Shown here piece after piece: positions 4,448 through 57,860 of a stretch of DNA of 64,000 nt. The notes under the pieces are model-generated. The model had not been told where the DNA came from. It ran no database searches and saw only the letters and a program-made list of their open reading frames with translations. The stretch is from the IMG/VR virus record IMGVR_UViG_3300036772_000294, positions 1-64,000 of that record. The stretch is one strand, 5' to 3'. Within the stretch, counting starts at the first letter, position 1, and each line of letters opens with the position of its first letter. This DNA comes from a virus. The translations under genes were made by a program, and so were the position numbers.

Positions 4448-7400
4448 TTACGCCTGATCGTTAGCTATTTGTACAAGTGACGGATCGCTAAAAGTGCGCG
4501 GGATAGTAGGTTTTTTGGCTCGTTCTGACTGTGCGCCAGTCGTCGCCTCCTTTGCTCCATTTTTGGCAATCTTCTCGAGGTTTTGATTCATCTGTTTAAA
4601 CAGCTCTTTGGCTTCGGGATCTGTCTTCTGTGTGACTTCAATAGAGTCCTTTTTACCGGGCTGTTCGCCCGTCTTTTGTGGCTGTGCTGATTTAACCGTT
4701 GTTAAATCTGTGAGGGTGTGAACCTCTTTTGGTGTTTGGGTTGAACTCATCGCCTCAGCGGTTTGAGCCGCCGGTTTCGAAGGCGAAACAGGCTGTGCTA
4801 CGGAAACAGTCGCCTGGGCGTTTTCAGCCGGTAATTTAGCCACCTGAGAAGATGGGGCTGTCGGGTCGGTCGTGGCAGTTTGAATTGATTTTGTGCTCGG
4901 CTGCTCCGCGGCCTGCGTTTGTTGTGGTGCTACCGCGGCAGTTTGCTGTTCCGGCGCGCTATCTGTGTTTGTTGCGGCTTTGGGAGAGGTAATGCCGGAT
5001 GCCTTAGCTTGCTCCTGGTACTCGTTATAATTGCGCAATATATTGCGCACGTAGTCCTGAGTCTGCTTTGCGTTTTTAGGCCCCGTAACATCTGGCAATT
5101 GATTTAGAACCGCATCGATATCATCCGATTTTGCCTTTTTACGTGCTTTATCAATGTTGCCTGGGCCTGCGTTGTACGCGGCAAGCGCCAGTGCTGTATC
5201 GCCTTTGTATTTTTTCTTTAGCTGGGACATGTACTTTGCGCCACCAGCGACGGATTGCTCGGGGTTGAAACGATCAGTAACGCCAAGATCGCTCGCTGTA
5301 TCTGGCATTATTTGCATTAAACCACCGGCACCGGCATACGAAACCGCTTTATGATCGCCGCCTGACTCCTGTTTTGTCTGAGCCCGCAGCAATAGTGGGT
5401 CTATGTTGTAGTTTTTGCCTTCTTTCTCATAAAGTCCGTCAAATTTAGATAATTTCTCTTCAACTTTCGTATCATTTTTCAGGCCTTTGGTGACGCCAGC
5501 ACCAGTGTAATTTCCCACTGGCCCGGTCCCCAGATAGTTGCTTTTGGCCTGCTGGATAAGCTCGCCGACCTTCAGCGTTCGCAGTCCCAGCATATCCGCA
5601 ATGTTAAAGAAGGTATCGGCAACATCTTTCATGCCGTCTTTCACAACTTTTGCTGTCGCCGCACCCATCTCCTTAGCTTTTTTCTCGTCGGCATTTTCGG
5701 CAGCTGCGTCAGTTTTTGTGCCAAAGAGGCCTTGGGCGTAAGAGGCCATATTGCTGATATTTTTAGCAATATCACCAGTTTCAAATGTCAGTGCTTCTGC
5801 AACCTTGCTCATCCCAAGTTTTTCAGCGCCGGCGGCCAGCAATCCAGAACCACCTGATACCAGGCCCCCCATATCAAGCACATTTGCTGCTGTATAGGAG
5901 CCTCGATGTTTAGATGAAACTGCCTGTTCATCCGTCAGGCCGAAAGTCTGTCGCTGGCTATCTTCATCGGTGTAGCCTTCAGCTGCATCCATACCAGCGG
6001 TTATTGCCGTACCGATAATCGGTATGAATCTGAGTATCCCTTTCGCGGCGGCCTTTACGCCGAGCTTTGTGGCCAGCTTGCCGCCCGTTTTTTCTGCGAG
6101 GCTTCCGCCTGCCTTTGCTGCAACACCTGCACCCGCTTTTTTCTCAATTGACTGAGCCCGTTTAGCGGAAAGCGCCTCTGCTTCAGTTAATGGCCTGCCC
6201 ATGGATAATGTCTTTGGTTGCTTCTTACCGGGCTCATGGGCTGATTTTGACGAATTCGAAGAGACACCTGGGGTTTTGGATGGTGTGCCGTTGGCAGCTT
6301 TAGGCGTACCGGTAGAATTTGCCGGAGCTTTCGCTGGCCTGCCCCGGACGGGCTTAGTTTTAGGTGGCTCGCCTGTCTTCGGCTTTGGCGTGGAGGGTTT
6401 GCGTTCTGCAGCGCCGTTACCTCGGCTGAAAACACTTTTCAACTTACTAAAGCGCCCGCGCTTCCCTTTTGTTGAGCGGTTTTTTTGCGCCTTTTCTGAT
6501 TTAGCGGAACTCCTGCGTTCTCGCCGTGTTGTGCCATCCTTTCGTCTGCCTGTGAAGACGTCTTTCAGTTTTTTCAGGCCAAGCAGGCCAGCAAGACCGC
6601 TAAGCCCTTTCCCCATCAACCCGGATAACCCGCCGCCGCCTCCAGCGCCGCCGCCGCTTGCCTTGATCAGGTCATCCAGCCGATCGATAACCTCCTGATG
6701 ATTGGAGTTAATATCCTCTGTTTGCTCATCAATTTTGCGAGGGGTTTCTTTTGCTAACGCACGGTCTTTCGCTACGACCGAACCGGCGACGCGCGAGGTT
6801 TTATTTTTAACTTTTGGGGCGTTTTGAATGTGCTGAGCTACAACGGCAGATTGCGCATTTGGCCGCGGAGTAGATACCTGCGGCGATAAAGGTCCAGTTG
6901 AGACATCTGGTTGCTCTGCACCAGCGCTCAGGGCTGTAACTATGCTTTTTTGCGCTGCTGGCGCTGGGGTGTTTTCAGACTTAACTGTCTGGCCAGCTTT
7001 CAAACGCTCAGATGTAACTGGCTGGTATTCAGCACGGCGTATGATGCTGCGTGTATTTGGCGTCCCGGTAGACGCCTCTCTTTTGGCTTCCGGCTCGTCT
7101 GCAGGCGTTGCCGGTTTAGAAGAGAGTTTATTTTGAAGGGCTGAGAACGGCTTGAGAAACTTCGAAACGAGGCCCTCTTCACCGTTTTTACCTTCGCCAA
7201 TGAGCGACTTAGACAAATTGTAAGTTTCTACACCGGCTTTCCAGTATGAGCCACCGGCGGCGGTGCCCGCGACATCCAGGGCCGCGTTTTCTGTATTTAC
7301 CGTTTCTGAAATGAGATCGCCAATTTTCCTGATAACGCTTCGATCGTCATCATGATCACCATCATCATCCTGCCTTGTGCGCTTTCGCTCCGCCTCGTCC

Positions 7401-45587: not shown

Positions 45588-45791
45588 ATGAATGGTTCAA
45601 TTACAACCATAACAAAGCATAGCTATATGAGCTTAGAAAAACGTTTGAAGGAGATAGCTCGTGCCTGGCGGGAGTTGGAAAAATTCGGACGTTCGGTGTG
45701 GCGAGATGAATTAATGAGCAAGCTATTAGCTGAATTCGTTCGTCTAATACCGCAAGCCAAATACTATGGTTTTATTACAGATAAAAAATAG
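45588..45791 (+). CDS. Small basic protein of unknown function
   Basis: The ATG at 45588 has GGAG ten bases upstream. The 67-residue product is helical and basic (SLEKRLKEIARAWRELEKFG), with no membrane segment. It forms a single-gene unit with a terminator right behind it. No family is recognised; a DNA- or RNA-binding regulator is possible. Confidence 0.5.
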   Translation: MNGSITTITKHSYMSLEKRLKEIARAWRELEKFGRSVWRDELMSKLLAEFVRLIPQAKYYGFITDKK

Positions 45792-45830: not shown

Positions 45831-45934
45831 AAGCATATGAAGACGCGAGAAGCGGATTGACTAACATTCTGCCCAAGCATCGTCTTTGTATGCAGCCCCC
45901 ATTGGGAGGCTGCATTAGCATTCTTACCTGAACA

Positions 45935-46015
45935 TTAACGAGCTTCCAGGTAATCCAGGATGGCCATGATAATGACCAACACTGCTTGCACGATTTTTAA
46001 AGCTAGTACCACCAT
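45935..46015 (-). CDS. TisB/DinQ-like hydrophobic peptide, candidate type I toxin
   Basis: A 26-residue frame with ATG at 46015 and GGTGA five bases upstream. Its product starts MVVLALKIVQAVLVIIMAI and ends with a charged tail (LDYLEAR). One membrane-spanning helix and a short acidic-basic end resemble TisB, DinQ and Ibs-type toxins, which depolarise the inner membrane. The leader on the same strand contains a CCGTGAA/TTCACGG stem. Two related plus-strand RNA units lie upstream, antisense to the leader. Expression and toxicity are inferred. Confidence 0.55.
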   Translation of the reverse strand: MVVLALKIVQAVLVIIMAILDYLEAR

Positions 46016-46090
46016 AGTGTCACCAATTTCGTGGTTCTCACCTTCCCGTGAAAGCCCTTGGGTTTTCATTCACGGTATGTGTGCATCGTG

Positions 46091-46177
46091 CTGACAGATA
46101 CACTCGCGGCTCGAATTGGTTTGGGCTCAGTTCCCGCATCACCAGGAACTGGAAAATCTAAATACTCTTTTTTTTTA
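46091..46177 (+). ncRNA. Possible antitoxin-type RNA unit 1
   Basis: It begins with CTGACAGATACACTCGC, shared with unit 2, then has a CAGTTCC/GGAACTG stem and a T-run about 16 bases later (46168-46176). A promoter is not clear. It lies opposite to the leader of the hydrophobic peptide gene, as expected for an antisense regulator. Confidence 0.35.
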
Positions 46178-46244
46178 GTCTGTTAGTTCAGCCGAACAAA
46201 ATAATCCCGCTAAAAGTTTGTCGTTCTCTGCCCGTATACGTTAA

Positions 46245-46348
46245 TCTTACCTCGCTGGCAGATACACTCGCCGAAAGTGACGTTCGAAGCTTTAGCTGGA
46301 AATTTCACTTTAAGAAAAGCCTGGACTCATCATCCGGGCTTTTTTTTA
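46245..46348 (+). ncRNA. Possible antitoxin-type RNA unit 2
   Basis: CTGGCAGATACACTCGC at 46255-46271 repeats unit 1 with one mismatch. A good terminator follows: AAGCCTGG/CCGGGCTT with eight T residues (46317-46347). A weak promoter (TTGTCG, 17 bases, TTAATC) ends about 46247. The 330 bases beyond this (46349-46682) show nothing I can name. Confidence 0.4.
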
Positions 46349-46682
46349 TCCAAAATTCCCAACAATGATTCTTTCTTATAGATAAATACTATATATAGGT
46401 GTCTAACCCTATGTCATTGCCTATATGCTGAGTATTCTAGTAACTAATCGGCTGAGAACAAGTATTAATTTCGCCGGGGATTTGAGGTTGTGACAGGCTG
46501 AAATTCGCTAAGTCCACGGCACATAAGGCCCGTAGGATTTGTCAATGGGATGCAAAAAAAATGATAATTTTGATCGAATGCTGATTTCTTAAACTTTATG
46601 GATAATCGGGTTACGTACTTTTACTCAAAACAGTTATTCAAACCTTTCAAATAAATTTATCCATGCTCTCCGGCAATTATCA

Positions 46683-50972: not shown

Positions 50973-53900
50973 TTATGCGTGAGACTTGATAACAGACAAA
51001 ACGTCTTCAATGTTGTTACTGGAGGATACCAGCCACCAGGAGCCTTCAAACTCTTCACCGGCGTTTCTGCCGTTATAGTATTTGGCGTTGAAGCGGTCCT
51101 TAAGTTCGTCCTTGGCTTTAAACAGGCTGCCGGATTTACCGCGAGAATCCTGAATGCCGTAACACCCCCCTTCGGAGAAATTAATACCCCACTTCGCACG
51201 TATTCTGGTTGTGTTCTTTTTGACAGACAGGCCGAGATCGTCAATCGACACGTCGACTTCTTCCGCCGCCGTCTGGGCCGCCTCTACTTTCGCCTTGGCC
51301 GCCTCGAGCTCTTCGGGAGAAATTAACCCAATTTTCAGGCGAATGTCATTCAGGAAGTCTTCCGCACCACCAGCATTGATAGCCTTAAGCTTCTCCACGA
51401 CTTCACGCATAGCGACGTCATAGGCATTTTTTGTGGCGAGCATTTTTGCCGTTACAGCGCTTTTTGCAAACAGGCCGGCAAACACCATATCGGCAAAATA
51501 GCGGCTTCCGTTCAGCATGCTGGCAAGCGGCTCGCCGTACTTAGCGGCGGTCCGTTGATAGCCTGACACTACGGCGTATCCGCTTGATTCAGTCCGTTGC
51601 ATCGCCCGTTGCAGACGCTCGACGATCCCGGGATCAATCACGGTCAGGTTGCTCTCAAACTCTTCCATCCAGCGTAAGCCATACTGGTTAACCGCGTTGC
51701 GGCAATCATCGATAGCCTGCGCTGAAAGTTGGTTGACCATTGATTCTATAGCTGCGTTGAAATCCCCTTTATTTGCGAATCGTCCGGGTATGCGTTTGCG
51801 CGCTTGGTAACCAAAGTCAGCACCTCTTTGCTCCGGCAGCCGGTCATTTGCAATGAGGTAGATAACGTCCCGTTCATTCGCGCCTGAAATGAGCTTTGCA
51901 AGCGAGTCATCTGCGCGCATCATCGCCAGGGTGTCACTGATGAACAGTGCAATCTCTGATTCTGACGCTTGCTCACCGTAACTCTCCATAACGACTTTCC
52001 AGTTTTCTCCCATCACGGCCTGAATAAAGGTTTCACCGGCAAATTTCAGCTTATTGGTTAACGTTGGCTCCGCCTCACGTAGCCAGTTCGCCAGGCGGGT
52101 TTTAAGAACATCATCGGTCGGGTCCGGGTAAATAATCTTCATCGAATTGGATTTGAACCAGCCAGCGTCTATGTTCTGCGTGCGTGAGCTGTAAGAGGAT
52201 GTGGTGCCTGCCCGGACATTGATTTCATCGCCGTCATAAAATGGTATGGCCTTGTCATTGAGGGTAAGGGACCCATCAGCGAGGTATTTCTGAAACTGTG
52301 ATTTTGACAGCCGCTCAGAAATGGCTTTGGCCCAGACGCCGCTCATCATCCACTGGCGTAGCGATACTTCGCTTTCGCTCACGGTGACGCGCTTACGCAG
52401 ATTGTCGACGTGAGTCTTAACTTTCCGGTTTGCTCCAGCGCGATCCGTGCCTGGCGCGTAAATTTGAGAAAGCTCGGCAATACCTGAGTCAAAGTCTATG
52501 CTCTCAATGCGGCATAGCGCGGCATCTGATTGTATACCTCTGGCCACGTCATAAGCGAAGGTTTCACCAGTGCTGAATTGCCCATTTTTTGAAATATAAA
52601 ACTCGCTGGCCCGGTCCAGGATTCGTGCAGGAACTTCTATCAATCCGGCCTCGATTGCTTTGCTAATGGTCGGGCGGAGGCGTTTAATTTCACTCTCTGA
52701 TTTCTTCTGACGCTCGACCTTGCGCTCCATTTTTCTTAGCACTGCCTGTGCTTTATTGATGGACTTACTTGCTTTCTCAAGGCTTTCTTTGGCATTACGC
52801 ATGCGAAATGCTGCATTTTCGGCGTCGACACGGTAACGGTAGCCAACTGGCGATTCTGAACGAACCTCTATCATTGCCGCATCGTAATCAGCCTGGCCCT
52901 GTGCCATTTCGTTCTGCACTTCTTCAATGCGGGCCTGATCGCGCTCAAAAACCTGCTTTTGCTTCTCAATATCTGCCAGCAGCGTATCCATATCGCCTTT
53001 CGCCGCGTGGCTGGCTTTGATGTAATTCTGCAGATCGATACCGGCGCGTTTCTGGGCTGCTGCCATGGCTTTAGTTTTAGCTTCCTCCATCATTTCCGCG
53101 TTTCTGCAGGCGCGCTCTTCGGGATTGGCTGCCAACAGCAAACTCATATCAGCCGCATCACTGGCGTCGGCGTTTGCCATGCGCGCCTCGTCGGACGTAA
53201 ACAGCGTGGTAATCCATTCTTTCTTGCGCTTAAGAGTAGACAGGCGGAACTCATCAAATGAGCCCTTACCAGCATAGTAATGCACCCTGACTTTGGACTG
53301 CTTCGATCCCGTGCGTGCGCCGCGACCATTTCGCTGATCGATACTGGCCGGCGTCCAGGGTAACGTCAGATGGTGGATATCCGTTGTGCCGTGGTGAAGG
53401 TTGATCCCAACTTCCGCCTTCTTGTTGCAGATCAGAATGCGTTTGCGGCCCTCGTTGTAATCAGCTGCTATGGACTCAATACCTGTCAGGCTGAGCTCGC
53501 CACTCTGGGCAATGTAATCCTCATACGCCAGCTTCTGCGTGTAATAGGCTTCCATTTCTGCCTCGGTCGCATCCTCTTTCGGCTCCCTTGGGGGTTTGAC
53601 GGCCTTTAGCTTCTTCTTGCCCTTTCCTGCAGCAGCGACCGAGGCCGCGTTAATAATGCCGATCTCACTGGCATCAATGCCGAGTTCTGCGCACAGGATA
53701 CGTGCCAGCTTTTCATGTTGTGACTTTTCATCGGTGAAGATGATCTGCTTCCCGCCTTCCTCGTATCCTCGCTTCACTTTCTCAATCAGTGCGGAATATT
53801 TCGGCATTATCGGGTGCGATACGGCGGAAGCATCGATTTTAAACGCCGACAGGCGCTTCATCACTTCGCCTTCATAATCCTCCGGGACCACCAGCTCAAT

Positions 53901-56900
53901 AACTTCGCCACGGAGTGCAATACTAACCTGCGCCTCTACGTCGTAGGTTTCGTCGCTATCTTCACTTACCGCTTTGGTTTTGGCCGGTAGGGCTTCAGCA
54001 AGGCCACGAATTGCCGTTTCATACTGCGCTGGCAACCTGAAGGTCATCTGCCGACGGTAGAGGTCCAGATCGGTACACACACGATCCATGTCACGAATGA
54101 TGGCGAAAATACTGTCTTTTTCGATAAGGTGGCCATGCGCATCGCGTGATTCCTCCGCGTCGGCTTTCGGTCCGTTCTGGTTCGACAATGCCTCAGCACG
54201 CTGGCGTAATTCCTCGTAGATCGCTGCCTGCGCACCGGTCATCGGTGCCTCTACGGTGTGTTCTTCTAAATCCGGGATTTTTACTGAATCTGAAACATCC
54301 TTAACGGACTTGAGATCTACCCATCGATGGAAGATCCCGCGCAGGCCAGAAAGGTTCTGGAAGCCTACCAGCCCTTCCTTCTCTTCAACCTCCCCGGACA
54401 GTTTCTGCACCAGCACGGTATCCGTCGCGCCGAAGACTTTTACGAAGTCGTCTGGTGTCTGAATACCCAGCTTGCCCCACTCTTCCATAGTCATGACGTG
54501 GGAAAGCATGTTGAAGGCATCGATCGGGGAGTTTACGGCTGGGGTAGCCGTGCCCAGCAGCACACCACGTCCGTTATTTTTGCTCAACATGTAAGCATTT
54601 TTGACGGCCATATCTCGCGCCGACTGCGCAACAGAAGGCGACGGCAAATAGGCGAGCTGCCCGGCTTCCCGGCCCGCGGCATAGCTGTTTCGGTAGTTAT
54701 GCCCCTCATCGACTATTACGTTGTCAAATGCCATATCCTCAAAGTACGGATAGTCATGTTCTTTCGCCGTGCCGGTGTCTGAGGCTTTCGCCAGAATTCG
54801 GCTTTTTGCATTGGCATCACGGTGTTTGGTGCCGTCCAGATTGACACGCCCCGCCTCCGCTGCGTTGTAGAGCACATCGTAGGCATGATCCCGGATAGTC
54901 TCTTCTTTCATCGGAATCTTCGCGTACTGCTCTTTAGTCATGACCACCATGCGGTAGTTGGACTGCGGGATCAGGTGCATGCGCTGCTTAACGGTGTCTC
55001 CGTCCACAAGCTTCACATTAAGACGATATTCTTCTTCTCCGGTGTGCTGGTTAACTCGCGGCTTTCCTTCATCGTCCAGGACCGGTACGCGTTGAGGCTG
55101 CCCGTTCTCATCGGAGATGACATCCAGGCCAACAAAGAACATCGTTGAGAGCGCTTCGGCACTGTAGAAGTTATGCGCTTCGTGGAACCAGTTCTCATAA
55201 ACAGCTTTGGGCACAACCGTAGCGGTACGCTTGGCACGGCCATTCTCAAAGTTAAAAGCTTCCGTCGCCATCATGGTGACGGTTTTGCCGGTGCCGGTGC
55301 CATGGCCTAAAATCCCGCGTCCGTCTTCTGAGGCGCGCCGAGCGGCAGAGTTCTGGTGCGCAGCCGGTATCACTCGCCCTGAAATGCCTTTTAAGCCCAG
55401 CGGAGCGTCTGAATACTCAAAGGGGATGTGGCCATTGAAGGTGTCGTTATATTCCTGGACCAGGTTATCAATTTCGTCGTGCTGGCGTATCCAGTCGTTA
55501 AATCCGGCTTCCAGGACTTTAATACGCGCCATGTAATCCGCTGCGTATACGCCGCGTGGCTTGTTGCCGTTGAGGTAGTTTTCCAACTGCTCGAGGAAAG
55601 CGTCCTTTTGCTTAACTCGCTTATAACTGGACTTCATGATCCCGTTTGTTTTATCGCGGGAAACCACCGTGCCATAGCGGTAGCCGCTAAATACCCCCTG
55701 CCGTCCGTGATAGTCGCGATCGGCATTCATAATACCGTTGTCATCCACGGTCACATCGCCGGTATAGCTAAGCTTGTCGTACCCCTGCTCGGTCAGGTAT
55801 TCAAGTACAAGGGAACGATCAAACCAGCGCGCGTTTAGGTTGAAATCCAGATCGTCGACTTCGGTCCACTTCCGGCGGCGGCGAACTTCCACCAGCTGGC
55901 GCAGATAGTTTTGTCGAATGGCCTCGTTATCGATAACCGCCAGCGCACCATTAAGCGAGCTGGTAAGGGCGCTAATATCGCCGCTGGTGGCGCGGTCCAT
56001 TGGCATCAGGTCGCCAGAAGCGGTGATGGCAATACCTTCAACATGGGCCAGGGCAGACAGCGCCTCGTTGTCATCCTCCGGCAGCTCGCCGGTGAAGTGC
56101 TGGCGAAAGGCCTCCAGCGTGATCGGGTCCAGGTCAATCTGGCTAAACAGATGGCTCACGACCTGCACATGATCCGCGGTGTTGTGCGTAATGGTGCCGC
56201 CAATGTCCAATTGACCTTTTAGCAGCGCTGAAAGGTTGCCGTCTAAATCAGTTGAGGCGGCAAATTTCAGCCAGTTTTTAGCGTGGTTGCCGCGTATGCC
56301 GCTCACTTTTCCCGTTGCAGCACCGAACCGGCTAACTTCCCGCGCGACCAGGCGGGCCACGTCTGCGCGCAGCGGCTCGATGTAGTCAGGCCTGAGCTTG
56401 TTACTTTGGGCATCCTGCAACGTGGCAATTTGCACGCCGATCAGCGACCCTCTAAAAATACGCTCCCGAAGCTCTACAGGCTGCGATTGTGCCAGTGCCA
56501 TTGCCTGGCTCAAGTTGGCGTCAAACAGCGCAGGGAACGTCTGCCAGGCGGCAAGGATATGATCGAATGGCTTACCCAGCGTTGCACTGCAATCTTTCAG
56601 CTGGCCGGCAAGCTCGTCGTAAGATGCCGCCCCATACTTTGCTTCAGTAATGTCTGATACGCCGCGCGCGTCGTTGATTACCCAGCGTTCATTCTCAAAA
56701 CGATACCAGACGTCATTGATCAAGCGATCGTCGCCTTCGGCGTACCGTTCCACCATCGGCTCCACCAGCTCGAACTCATCCCACAAAATGCGGCTATCAA
56801 AGCGCTGAGCAAGCTTTGCCTTTATCCCTGCAGGTTTAATCTGGTCATTCTGGACACTCATGCGATAGCCCTGGACTACCGTGCCATGCAGGAAGCGCTT

Positions 56901-57860
56901 GCCGTCGAGATCGAACCACTTGCCTTTAATGAAGGTGTCCCACAACACGTTGGTATGCTTCAGGAATGGCGCTTTTTCGGTCAGGATGCGATCGGCCAGT
57001 TCTTCGGGGTGTTTACGCAATACCCAGACGTCTACCGCCGTGGAGGTGCCGTTATTCTCAAATGTCCCGGAGGGTAGCCGGTGCGCCCCCAAAAATTCGG
57101 CCTTACGAGAAACCTGCTCACGTAATTTTTTGTGCGTTGCGCCGGTCGTCATGCCAAAGGGTACGACGATGCAGATCATGCCGCCGGCTTTGACCTTATC
57201 GATAAGGCGCAGGATGAAATAACGGCCAATGTTGCTTTCTTTGGCATACGCGGGATCGAGGTTGGCAAACTCGCCTCGGGAATTACCAAAAGGCACATTG
57301 CCCACACAGCTGTCATAAGTGCCGTCGGGCGTGCTGGCGGCCAGCCTTTCAAATGGAGAGGTGATTACGGTGTCTTCGGGATGGAGCAGCTGGTTGATAC
57401 GGCTGGAGACGTCGCTTATCTCCGTGGCGGTCATAATAACCCCGGTTGGCTTGGTTTCGTGAAATACGCCGGTGCCGGAGGCGGGTTCTAAGGTGTTGCC
57501 GGTATCTGCGCCGTACCCAGCCAGGAGATCCCAAATTCCTTCCGCAACATATTGGGGAGTGTAATATTCATGCTCATTTGCACCGATCCCCCCCTCCCCT
57601 GTATACGCTGCCAGCACCTGCCTTTCTTCGTCGGTCAGGGTATCGCCTGGCGAGAATTTTCTAAGGAGCGCAACGGCTGCGGCGTTAGCTTCCTTTCGTT
57701 CTCTTTCGAGTGATCGTCCTTCAATTTTCTCAACACCGAACTGTGCACTCTTGCGCCGTTGGGTAAACAGGTGCAGCACACTCAGTAGAGCGCCGACACT
57801 CGTAGCACGGTTAATTGCTTCCACCGCGCGCCGCTTGTTGGGCTCAAAATCATCACTCAT
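50973..57860 (-). CDS. darB: DarB-type antirestriction methylase/helicase fusion
   Basis: A 2295-residue protein; P1 DarB is about 2250. The N-terminal domain is an adenine-type methyltransferase: YYTPQYVAEGIWDLL (about 99-113), LEPASGTGVF (124-133) and NVPFGN (189-194), the last a variant of NPPF. A helicase part follows: ILGHGTGTGKTVTMMA (Lys859), NVIVDEGHNYRN (about 1046-1057, DEGH box) and QRNGRGARTGSKQ (near 1510). The C-terminal 700 residues are mostly helical. P1 DarB is packaged and protects incoming DNA from type I restriction. It ends 31 bases before the 139-residue gene. Confidence 0.85.
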   Translation of the reverse strand: MSDDFEPNKRRAVEAINRATSVGALLSVLHLFTQRRKSAQFGVEKIEGRSLERERKEANAAAVALLRKFSPGDTLTDEERQVLAAYTGEGGIGANEHEYYTPQYVAEGIWDLLAGYGADTGNTLEPASGTGVFHETKPTGVIMTATEISDVSSRINQLLHPEDTVITSPFERLAASTPDGTYDSCVGNVPFGNSRGEFANLDPAYAKESNIGRYFILRLIDKVKAGGMICIVVPFGMTTGATHKKLREQVSRKAEFLGAHRLPSGTFENNGTSTAVDVWVLRKHPEELADRILTEKAPFLKHTNVLWDTFIKGKWFDLDGKRFLHGTVVQGYRMSVQNDQIKPAGIKAKLAQRFDSRILWDEFELVEPMVERYAEGDDRLINDVWYRFENERWVINDARGVSDITEAKYGAASYDELAGQLKDCSATLGKPFDHILAAWQTFPALFDANLSQAMALAQSQPVELRERIFRGSLIGVQIATLQDAQSNKLRPDYIEPLRADVARLVAREVSRFGAATGKVSGIRGNHAKNWLKFAASTDLDGNLSALLKGQLDIGGTITHNTADHVQVVSHLFSQIDLDPITLEAFRQHFTGELPEDDNEALSALAHVEGIAITASGDLMPMDRATSGDISALTSSLNGALAVIDNEAIRQNYLRQLVEVRRRRKWTEVDDLDFNLNARWFDRSLVLEYLTEQGYDKLSYTGDVTVDDNGIMNADRDYHGRQGVFSGYRYGTVVSRDKTNGIMKSSYKRVKQKDAFLEQLENYLNGNKPRGVYAADYMARIKVLEAGFNDWIRQHDEIDNLVQEYNDTFNGHIPFEYSDAPLGLKGISGRVIPAAHQNSAARRASEDGRGILGHGTGTGKTVTMMATEAFNFENGRAKRTATVVPKAVYENWFHEAHNFYSAEALSTMFFVGLDVISDENGQPQRVPVLDDEGKPRVNQHTGEEEYRLNVKLVDGDTVKQRMHLIPQSNYRMVVMTKEQYAKIPMKEETIRDHAYDVLYNAAEAGRVNLDGTKHRDANAKSRILAKASDTGTAKEHDYPYFEDMAFDNVIVDEGHNYRNSYAAGREAGQLAYLPSPSVAQSARDMAVKNAYMLSKNNGRGVLLGTATPAVNSPIDAFNMLSHVMTMEEWGKLGIQTPDDFVKVFGATDTVLVQKLSGEVEEKEGLVGFQNLSGLRGIFHRWVDLKSVKDVSDSVKIPDLEEHTVEAPMTGAQAAIYEELRQRAEALSNQNGPKADAEESRDAHGHLIEKDSIFAIIRDMDRVCTDLDLYRRQMTFRLPAQYETAIRGLAEALPAKTKAVSEDSDETYDVEAQVSIALRGEVIELVVPEDYEGEVMKRLSAFKIDASAVSHPIMPKYSALIEKVKRGYEEGGKQIIFTDEKSQHEKLARILCAELGIDASEIGIINAASVAAAGKGKKKLKAVKPPREPKEDATEAEMEAYYTQKLAYEDYIAQSGELSLTGIESIAADYNEGRKRILICNKKAEVGINLHHGTTDIHHLTLPWTPASIDQRNGRGARTGSKQSKVRVHYYAGKGSFDEFRLSTLKRKKEWITTLFTSDEARMANADASDAADMSLLLAANPEERACRNAEMMEEAKTKAMAAAQKRAGIDLQNYIKASHAAKGDMDTLLADIEKQKQVFERDQARIEEVQNEMAQGQADYDAAMIEVRSESPVGYRYRVDAENAAFRMRNAKESLEKASKSINKAQAVLRKMERKVERQKKSESEIKRLRPTISKAIEAGLIEVPARILDRASEFYISKNGQFSTGETFAYDVARGIQSDAALCRIESIDFDSGIAELSQIYAPGTDRAGANRKVKTHVDNLRKRVTVSESEVSLRQWMMSGVWAKAISERLSKSQFQKYLADGSLTLNDKAIPFYDGDEINVRAGTTSSYSSRTQNIDAGWFKSNSMKIIYPDPTDDVLKTRLANWLREAEPTLTNKLKFAGETFIQAVMGENWKVVMESYGEQASESEIALFISDTLAMMRADDSLAKLISGANERDVIYLIANDRLPEQRGADFGYQARKRIPGRFANKGDFNAAIESMVNQLSAQAIDDCRNAVNQYGLRWMEEFESNLTVIDPGIVERLQRAMQRTESSGYAVVSGYQRTAAKYGEPLASMLNGSRYFADMVFAGLFAKSAVTAKMLATKNAYDVAMREVVEKLKAINAGGAEDFLNDIRLKIGLISPEELEAAKAKVEAAQTAAEEVDVSIDDLGLSVKKNTTRIRAKWGINFSEGGCYGIQDSRGKSGSLFKAKDELKDRFNAKYYNGRNAGEEFEGSWWLVSSSNNIEDVLSVIKSHA

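Follow-up and report, generated by a model that had tools for sequence, protein, structure and literature searches.

The locus described here very probably belongs to an unnamed family of type I toxin-antitoxin cassettes of plasmids and phage-plasmids, in which, judging from the sequence, the toxin mRNA would follow the demand for ribonucleotide reductase and a small antisense RNA (sRNA) would keep it in check. It lies in a window of 64,000 nt, the whole stretch of DNA that was analysed, which is part of a 79.8 kb IMG/VR record. An initial annotation had suspected a new type I toxin locus at 45935-46348, a suggestion that is now well supported by a conserved family, by covarying sRNA/target pairs and by a conserved leader structure. 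Those limits were too narrow, as the unit also includes a promoter element of the ribonucleotide reductase type at 46381-46594, which the initial annotation had missed. The features of the cassette are as follows.

45935..46015 (stop codon included), minus strand: toxin ORF, 26 aa MVVLALKIVQAVLVIIMAILDYLEAR, ATG at 46015
46036..46110, minus strand: toxin mRNA 5' leader with target hairpin, second hairpin with CCCAAGGG loop and closing stem (covariance model)
46090..46107, minus strand: antitoxin target GCGAGTGTATCTGTCAGC, the repeat of the first of two RNA units in the initial annotation, on the other strand (sRNA complementarity)
46218..46247, plus strand: predicted sRNA promoter, TTGTCG and TAATCT (or GTTAAT) (position-weight scan, moderate score only)
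46252..46344, plus strand: antitoxin sRNA gene, the second of these units (covariance model, fold)
46313..46344, plus strand: sRNA intrinsic terminator, hairpin and T8 (conserved in relatives, with compensatory changes)
46381..46594, minus strand: nrdAB-type promoter region upstream of the toxin (70-73% identity over 170-212 nt)
46386..46401, minus strand: predicted NrdR box CACCTATATATAGTAT (score 10.4)
46434..46461, minus strand: toxin core promoter, TTGTTC, 16 nt, TAGAAT (nrdA promoter alignment)

As had been noted earlier, a 26-residue hydrophobic peptide (GRAVY 1.88) is encoded on the minus strand, with GGTGA ahead of ATG 46015 as its ribosome-binding site. In the folding models, the region of its second codon is predicted to have an unpaired probability near 0 at every mRNA length modelled. 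The hairpin downstream of the ORF has no T-run behind it.

Plasmid relatives and the phage-plasmid setting

The cassette is present on plasmids of Klebsiella (L003), Enterobacter and E. coli (L004, L100 and L105), Kosakonia (L099) and Citrobacter (L103 and L107). A layout scan for a short hydrophobic ORF, an upstream direct repeat and an opposite-strand terminator, which recovered the controls tisB and dinQ, was positive in loci that had been fetched solely for their shared DNA at 46381-46594. Moreover, when the cassette of one relative was searched without its promoter, 102 plasmid records were obtained (83 of them Escherichia/E. coli, and many of 108-112 kb); four of these records were fetched (L109-L112), and L114-L117 came from a covariance-model search of 392 genomes. 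The sRNA, the leader structure, the toxin and the nrd-type promoter are present in order in L003, L004, L099, L103, L107, L109-L112 and L114-L117, and the window agrees with them. Conservation of the peptide frame in related elements was a point on which the initial annotation had made its proposal depend; the frame is kept in the plasmid relatives, with pairing and structure intact.

Two related groups can be told apart among the toxins of the relatives, MxMLLLFLKLAHPVxVIIMTLLxYWKxR and MVxLLLKIVPPxxxIxxxIIDYxNxR; they often occur in tandem, and the second is the one that the window peptide resembles most. Its nearest relative is MVTLLLKIVPPIIEIAMAVIDYLNQCL (L109), with a Smith-Waterman score of 64, the maximum in 5000 shuffles being 47. 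In L109, L110 and L111, tandem intact toxin ORFs from both groups lie 3' of one target site.

No close homologue of the window locus was found in the plasmid, phage and E. coli collections, so that its conservation is known from distant relatives only. DNA searches with 45840-46420 against plasmids and E. coli, and with 45840-46600 against phages, gave no match in the toxin/sRNA part. The window peptide gave no tblastn match, a negative that carries little weight because a TisB query in plasmids was likewise unmatched, possibly through low-complexity masking. In viral contigs, the repeat pattern had four matches, the two that were read looking like chance, and a degenerate peptide pattern matched unrelated proteins only; the double-repeat pattern had no match in genome contigs, and a whole-locus DNA search of 392 genomes returned mainly a common terminator and rtT/tRNA repeats. 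No model matching this toxin or sRNA was found in Pfam, NCBIfam or Rfam, and no report linking NrdR, the nrdAB promoter or ribonucleotide reductase with toxin-antitoxin systems was found by title in the open full-text literature. What appears to be new here is an unnamed toxin/sRNA family, together with a new kind of transcriptional wiring of a type I system. The family is carried by many sequenced plasmids, where the toxin ORFs are mostly unannotated.

By its gene content, the element in the window is a divergent P1-like phage-plasmid, since genes for ParM, a StbB-like partner, Lpa and PmgS are present alongside pacase/terminase homologues, and the terminase shares 61-65% identity with its counterparts in P1-like phage-plasmids of Serratia, Pantoea, Enterobacter and E. 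coli. In the Serratia and Xenorhabdus relatives, the stbB-like gene abuts on its other side a small gene that is Lpa-like by alignment; in the window, stbB and lpa are separated by a 1.3-kb insert, which contains the toxin/sRNA locus. Between stbB and the cassette, a 67-aa ORF without family match (45588-45791, plus strand) is followed by a hairpin and T-run. Elsewhere in the window, a 2295-aa protein (50973-57860, minus strand) has partial profile matches to DISARM DrmD and to other helicase-like defence proteins, and is possibly P1 DarB-like.

The nrdAB-type promoter and the proposed circuit

The region at 46381-46594 was at first read as a MITE-like repeat, a reading that was replaced once the region had been aligned with the sequences immediately preceding nrdA in Klebsiella, Salmonella and Citrobacter. 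This alignment runs through the core promoter to NrdR box 1, in register, and the toxin mRNA is predicted to start at about 46427. The predicted NrdR box at 46386-46401 is the sole site in the window scoring at least 10, a pattern expected 0.01 times by chance; the reference scores are 12.0 for E. coli nrdAB box 1 and 10.4 for Salmonella nrdA. No second box (box 2 as defined in PMC12176259, the pair being 15-16 bp apart) is evident in the window. NrdR loaded with ATP and dATP is a repressor (PMC12176259). The box is absent or weak in L002, L104, L110, L111, L112 and L116, and therefore NrdR itself cannot be the universal input. The promoters of the relatives may instead share another nrdAB regulator, such as DnaA or Fis, the latter being a regulator of nrdAB. 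DnaA is also named as such in PMC12176259.

All eight loci that were found through the toxin or sRNA alone (L109-L112 and L114-L117) have the nrd-type region, L116 weakly, and all plasmid occurrences of the region that were read and that do not precede nrdA itself lie ahead of a toxin-like ORF that has a repeat upstream of it. The promoter of the Citrobacter plasmids L103 and L107 is 90-92% identical to the Citrobacter nrdA promoter, as compared with 81-84% to others, and that of L104 (Klebsiella) is 95% identical to Klebsiella nrdA. The sequence upstream of E. coli K-12 nrdA differs from the Klebsiella/Salmonella/Citrobacter type; the promoter of the E. coli plasmid L112 is of the E. coli nrdA type (82% over 140 nt), without match to the others. 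Judged by these identities, the Citrobacter, Klebsiella and E. coli plasmid copies are most like the nrdA promoter of their own host genus.

These observations bear on whether the cassette could be an ordinary plasmid addiction module, whose nrd-type region is a convenient promoter captured by recombination and whose toxin acts only after plasmid loss, with no role for signals from ribonucleotide reductase. Such modules exist, as DqlB-AgrB stabilises the plasmids pOXA-48 and pOXA-484 (PMC12365149, PMC12317039); the position of the window locus between the partition genes and lpa, and the loss of NrdR box 1 in several relatives, would also fit. Nevertheless, in nearly all relatives some 130 bp ahead of the core promoter are conserved together with it, and the copies track the nrdA promoter of the host genus, neither of which a convenient promoter would need. 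We therefore regard a simple addiction module as rather unlikely, though still a serious contender.

According to the preferred reading, a cassette tied to ribonucleotide reductase demand, the sRNA would be made constitutively and would bind the leader some 75 nt ahead of the start codon, at a predicted standby/EAP-like site as in tisB and zorO, so that the toxin, with its folded start region, would not be translated. The model for a blocked upstream ribosome-loading site is drawn from tisB, dinQ and zorO (PMC11228461, PMC3567139, PMC11264685). The toxin mRNA would be transcribed when the nrd-type promoter is active, that is, when more ribonucleotide reductase is demanded through NrdR, DnaA and related inputs; to go by the nrdAB literature, falling dATP would lift NrdR repression and open the promoter (PMC12176259). 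With such a promoter driving the toxin mRNA, the toxin would gain the upper hand under replication stress or when dNTPs run short, and likewise after plasmid loss, through decay of the sRNA. The peptide, predicted to be toxic, would depolarise the inner membrane after inserting into it. Because a leader from about 46427 contains the full sRNA complement, one may further speculate that the toxin mRNA might titrate its own antitoxin. If the nrd-type promoter is the sole toxin promoter, the leader would be about 410 nt long and cross the sRNA gene, unlike in tisB/dinQ; alternatively, the toxin could be transcribed from an unrecognised promoter closer to its gene.

A broader proposal, to which we give slightly less than even credence, is that Enterobacterales plasmids and phage-plasmids have repeatedly set type I membrane toxins (this family, DinQ and the possible L104 type) behind a host-like ribonucleotide reductase promoter, its host likeness being kept by recombination. 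The toxin would then fire when dNTP supply is challenged, e.g., by a replication block or another phage, and the leader could titrate the sRNA. Few type I toxins have a known natural trigger, namely tisB and dinQ, by SOS; if the wiring proposed here is true, a toxin family on a ribonucleotide reductase promoter would represent a second, testable trigger, nucleotide supply, and would connect dNTP sensing with phage competition and with the maintenance of plasmids and phage-plasmids.

Three further occurrences of such promoter regions were observed. In L104 (Klebsiella pKpnB3_1, about 1200-1940), the nrd-type promoter is followed by an 18/18 repeat and by a 38-aa hydrophobic ORF unlike the others, possibly a third toxin type. 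L002 (Buttiauxella pBTX_57, 5468-5939) holds an unannotated plasmid DinQ/AgrB pair (Rfam AgrB 40.3 bits, threshold 40; NCBIfam DinQ 29.9, threshold 30) behind a related promoter region, which is 81% identical to that of the window but does not significantly match any of the chromosomal nrdA promoters tested. Finally, in L106 (E. coli MLI104K2 chromosome, 1201-1369), an nrdA-type promoter copy with an NrdR box of 9.7 lies beside a recombinase gene and drives an unrelated protein (MLIQKKRIRNIDNYIPNFDGRD...); this promoter region is matched in 94 E. coli chromosomes.

One antisense RNA and its leader target

The repeated segment reported in the initial annotation was confirmed, as the plus-strand copies at 46090-46107 and 46254-46271 agree in 17 of 18 bases. 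Repeats of equal quality within 1 kb are rare, being present at three places in the window, one of which is a low-complexity tandem, and no further near copy of the 18-nt repeat was found. Read on the other strand, the first copy forms 18 contiguous pairs, one of them G-U, with the modelled sRNA (nt 3-20), and ends 74 nt before the ATG. The sRNA gene, with a fold z of -3.8, ends in a strong terminal hairpin and T-run, and from a promoter of fair quality its start is predicted at about 46252-46254, i.e., at the repeat.

Two covariance models, each built from nine relatives with the window left out, were then run over the 64 kb. Their E-values are rough, as calibrations were short: the sRNA model matched 46252-46344 (plus strand) at full length and in first place, with an E-value of 1.7e-9 and the next match at 0.004, and the leader model had 46036-46110 (minus strand) as its sole match, with an E-value of 3e-4. 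The structure of the leader model was taken from the relatives; in the leader alignment, 95% of cells are paired and 8 pairs have a compensatory change, and its pairing support lies above all 500 shuffles (0/500 as high) and above all slid versions. Moreover, the two repeat copies differ on average by 1.0 base within a locus and by 5.0 between loci, and 0/20000 permutations (re-pairings) were as good, a figure that is not a strict probability because the related loci are not independent.

The initial annotation had instead seen two similar antisense RNAs in tandem facing one toxin, as in agrA/agrB, and the presence of the 18-nt segment twice on the same strand had suggested it. The hairpin plus T-run described as ending both units holds for the second unit (46252-46344) and fails for the first, whose hairpin lies about 15 nt before its T-run and whose fold does not stand out (z -1.3); a promoter directed into it is also lacking. 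Outside the 18 nt, the two units are 59% identical, against 53 +/- 3% in shuffles, while agrA and agrB are 93% identical. With every aligned relative having one sRNA and one target, two antisense RNAs are highly improbable, and the repeat is, as the simplest reading of its geometry, one sRNA and its leader target. That the whole arrangement is due to chance or is a decayed, functionless remnant, as the lack of a close homologue in the collections searched might suggest, is equally hard to credit, since distant relatives conserve every part and keep the reading frame, the pairing and the structure intact, and the two models built without the window disfavour it.

Comparison with TisB, DinQ and ZorO

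The locus resembles TisB/IstR-1 in its small hydrophobic toxin and in its divergent, upstream sRNA gene. In the E. coli K-12 controls, pairing from the sRNA 5' end extends over 20 nt in IstR-1/tisB and 23 nt in AgrB/dinQ, compared to 18 nt in the window, and the pairing site lies 104 nt (tisB), 75 nt (dinQ) and 74 nt (window) ahead of the start codon; pairing begins at the first sRNA nucleotide in both controls and at nt 3 of the modelled sRNA in the window. In an ungapped alignment of the window peptide with TisB relatives, only 1/3000 shuffles scored as high. Membership in TisB was considered because of a strong pairwise score; it was dropped, as the score of the peptide against a TisB profile built for this analysis is within shuffles. 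No match to Pfam TisB (PF13939) was obtained. K12 and Q19 are essential in TisB (PMC11449926); the K12 position is kept in the window peptide, whereas Q19 is replaced by V and the D22 and K26 positions are not conserved. Furthermore, no LexA box (CTG-N10-CAG) was found near the locus, which, unlike tisB, has an nrd-type promoter instead.

With DinQ/AgrB and the plasmid DqlB/AgrB pair, a proven addiction module (PMC12365149, PMC12317039), the locus shares layout, pairing position and carriage on plasmids, and the Buttiauxella DinQ/AgrB pair stands behind a promoter region related to that of the window. However, the similarity of the window peptide to DinQ is not above shuffles (P 0.32), there is no NCBIfam DinQ match, no Rfam match, AgrB included, was found in the window and the sRNA is not duplicated at the window locus. 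Overall, the TisB/DinQ type assigned in the initial annotation is retained as regards the mode of action, pairing of the sRNA 5' end with a site some 75-105 nt ahead of the start codon, and abandoned as regards membership, the profiles being unmatched and Q19 absent.

In comparison with the chromosomal nrdAB promoter, the upstream region, the core promoter and NrdR box 1 are in register; the window copy differs in driving a toxin leader and not nrdA, and in that box 2 (PMC12176259) is not evident. ZorO/OrzO, which was set beside the window by description, has TTGCAA/TATAAT hexamers in the zor promoters (PMC11264685), as opposed to the nrd-type region. It also has an 18-nt pairing at the sRNA 5' end and a structured leader, and its pairing region, as in the present family, varies between loci while both partners agree (PMC3919570, PMC11264685).
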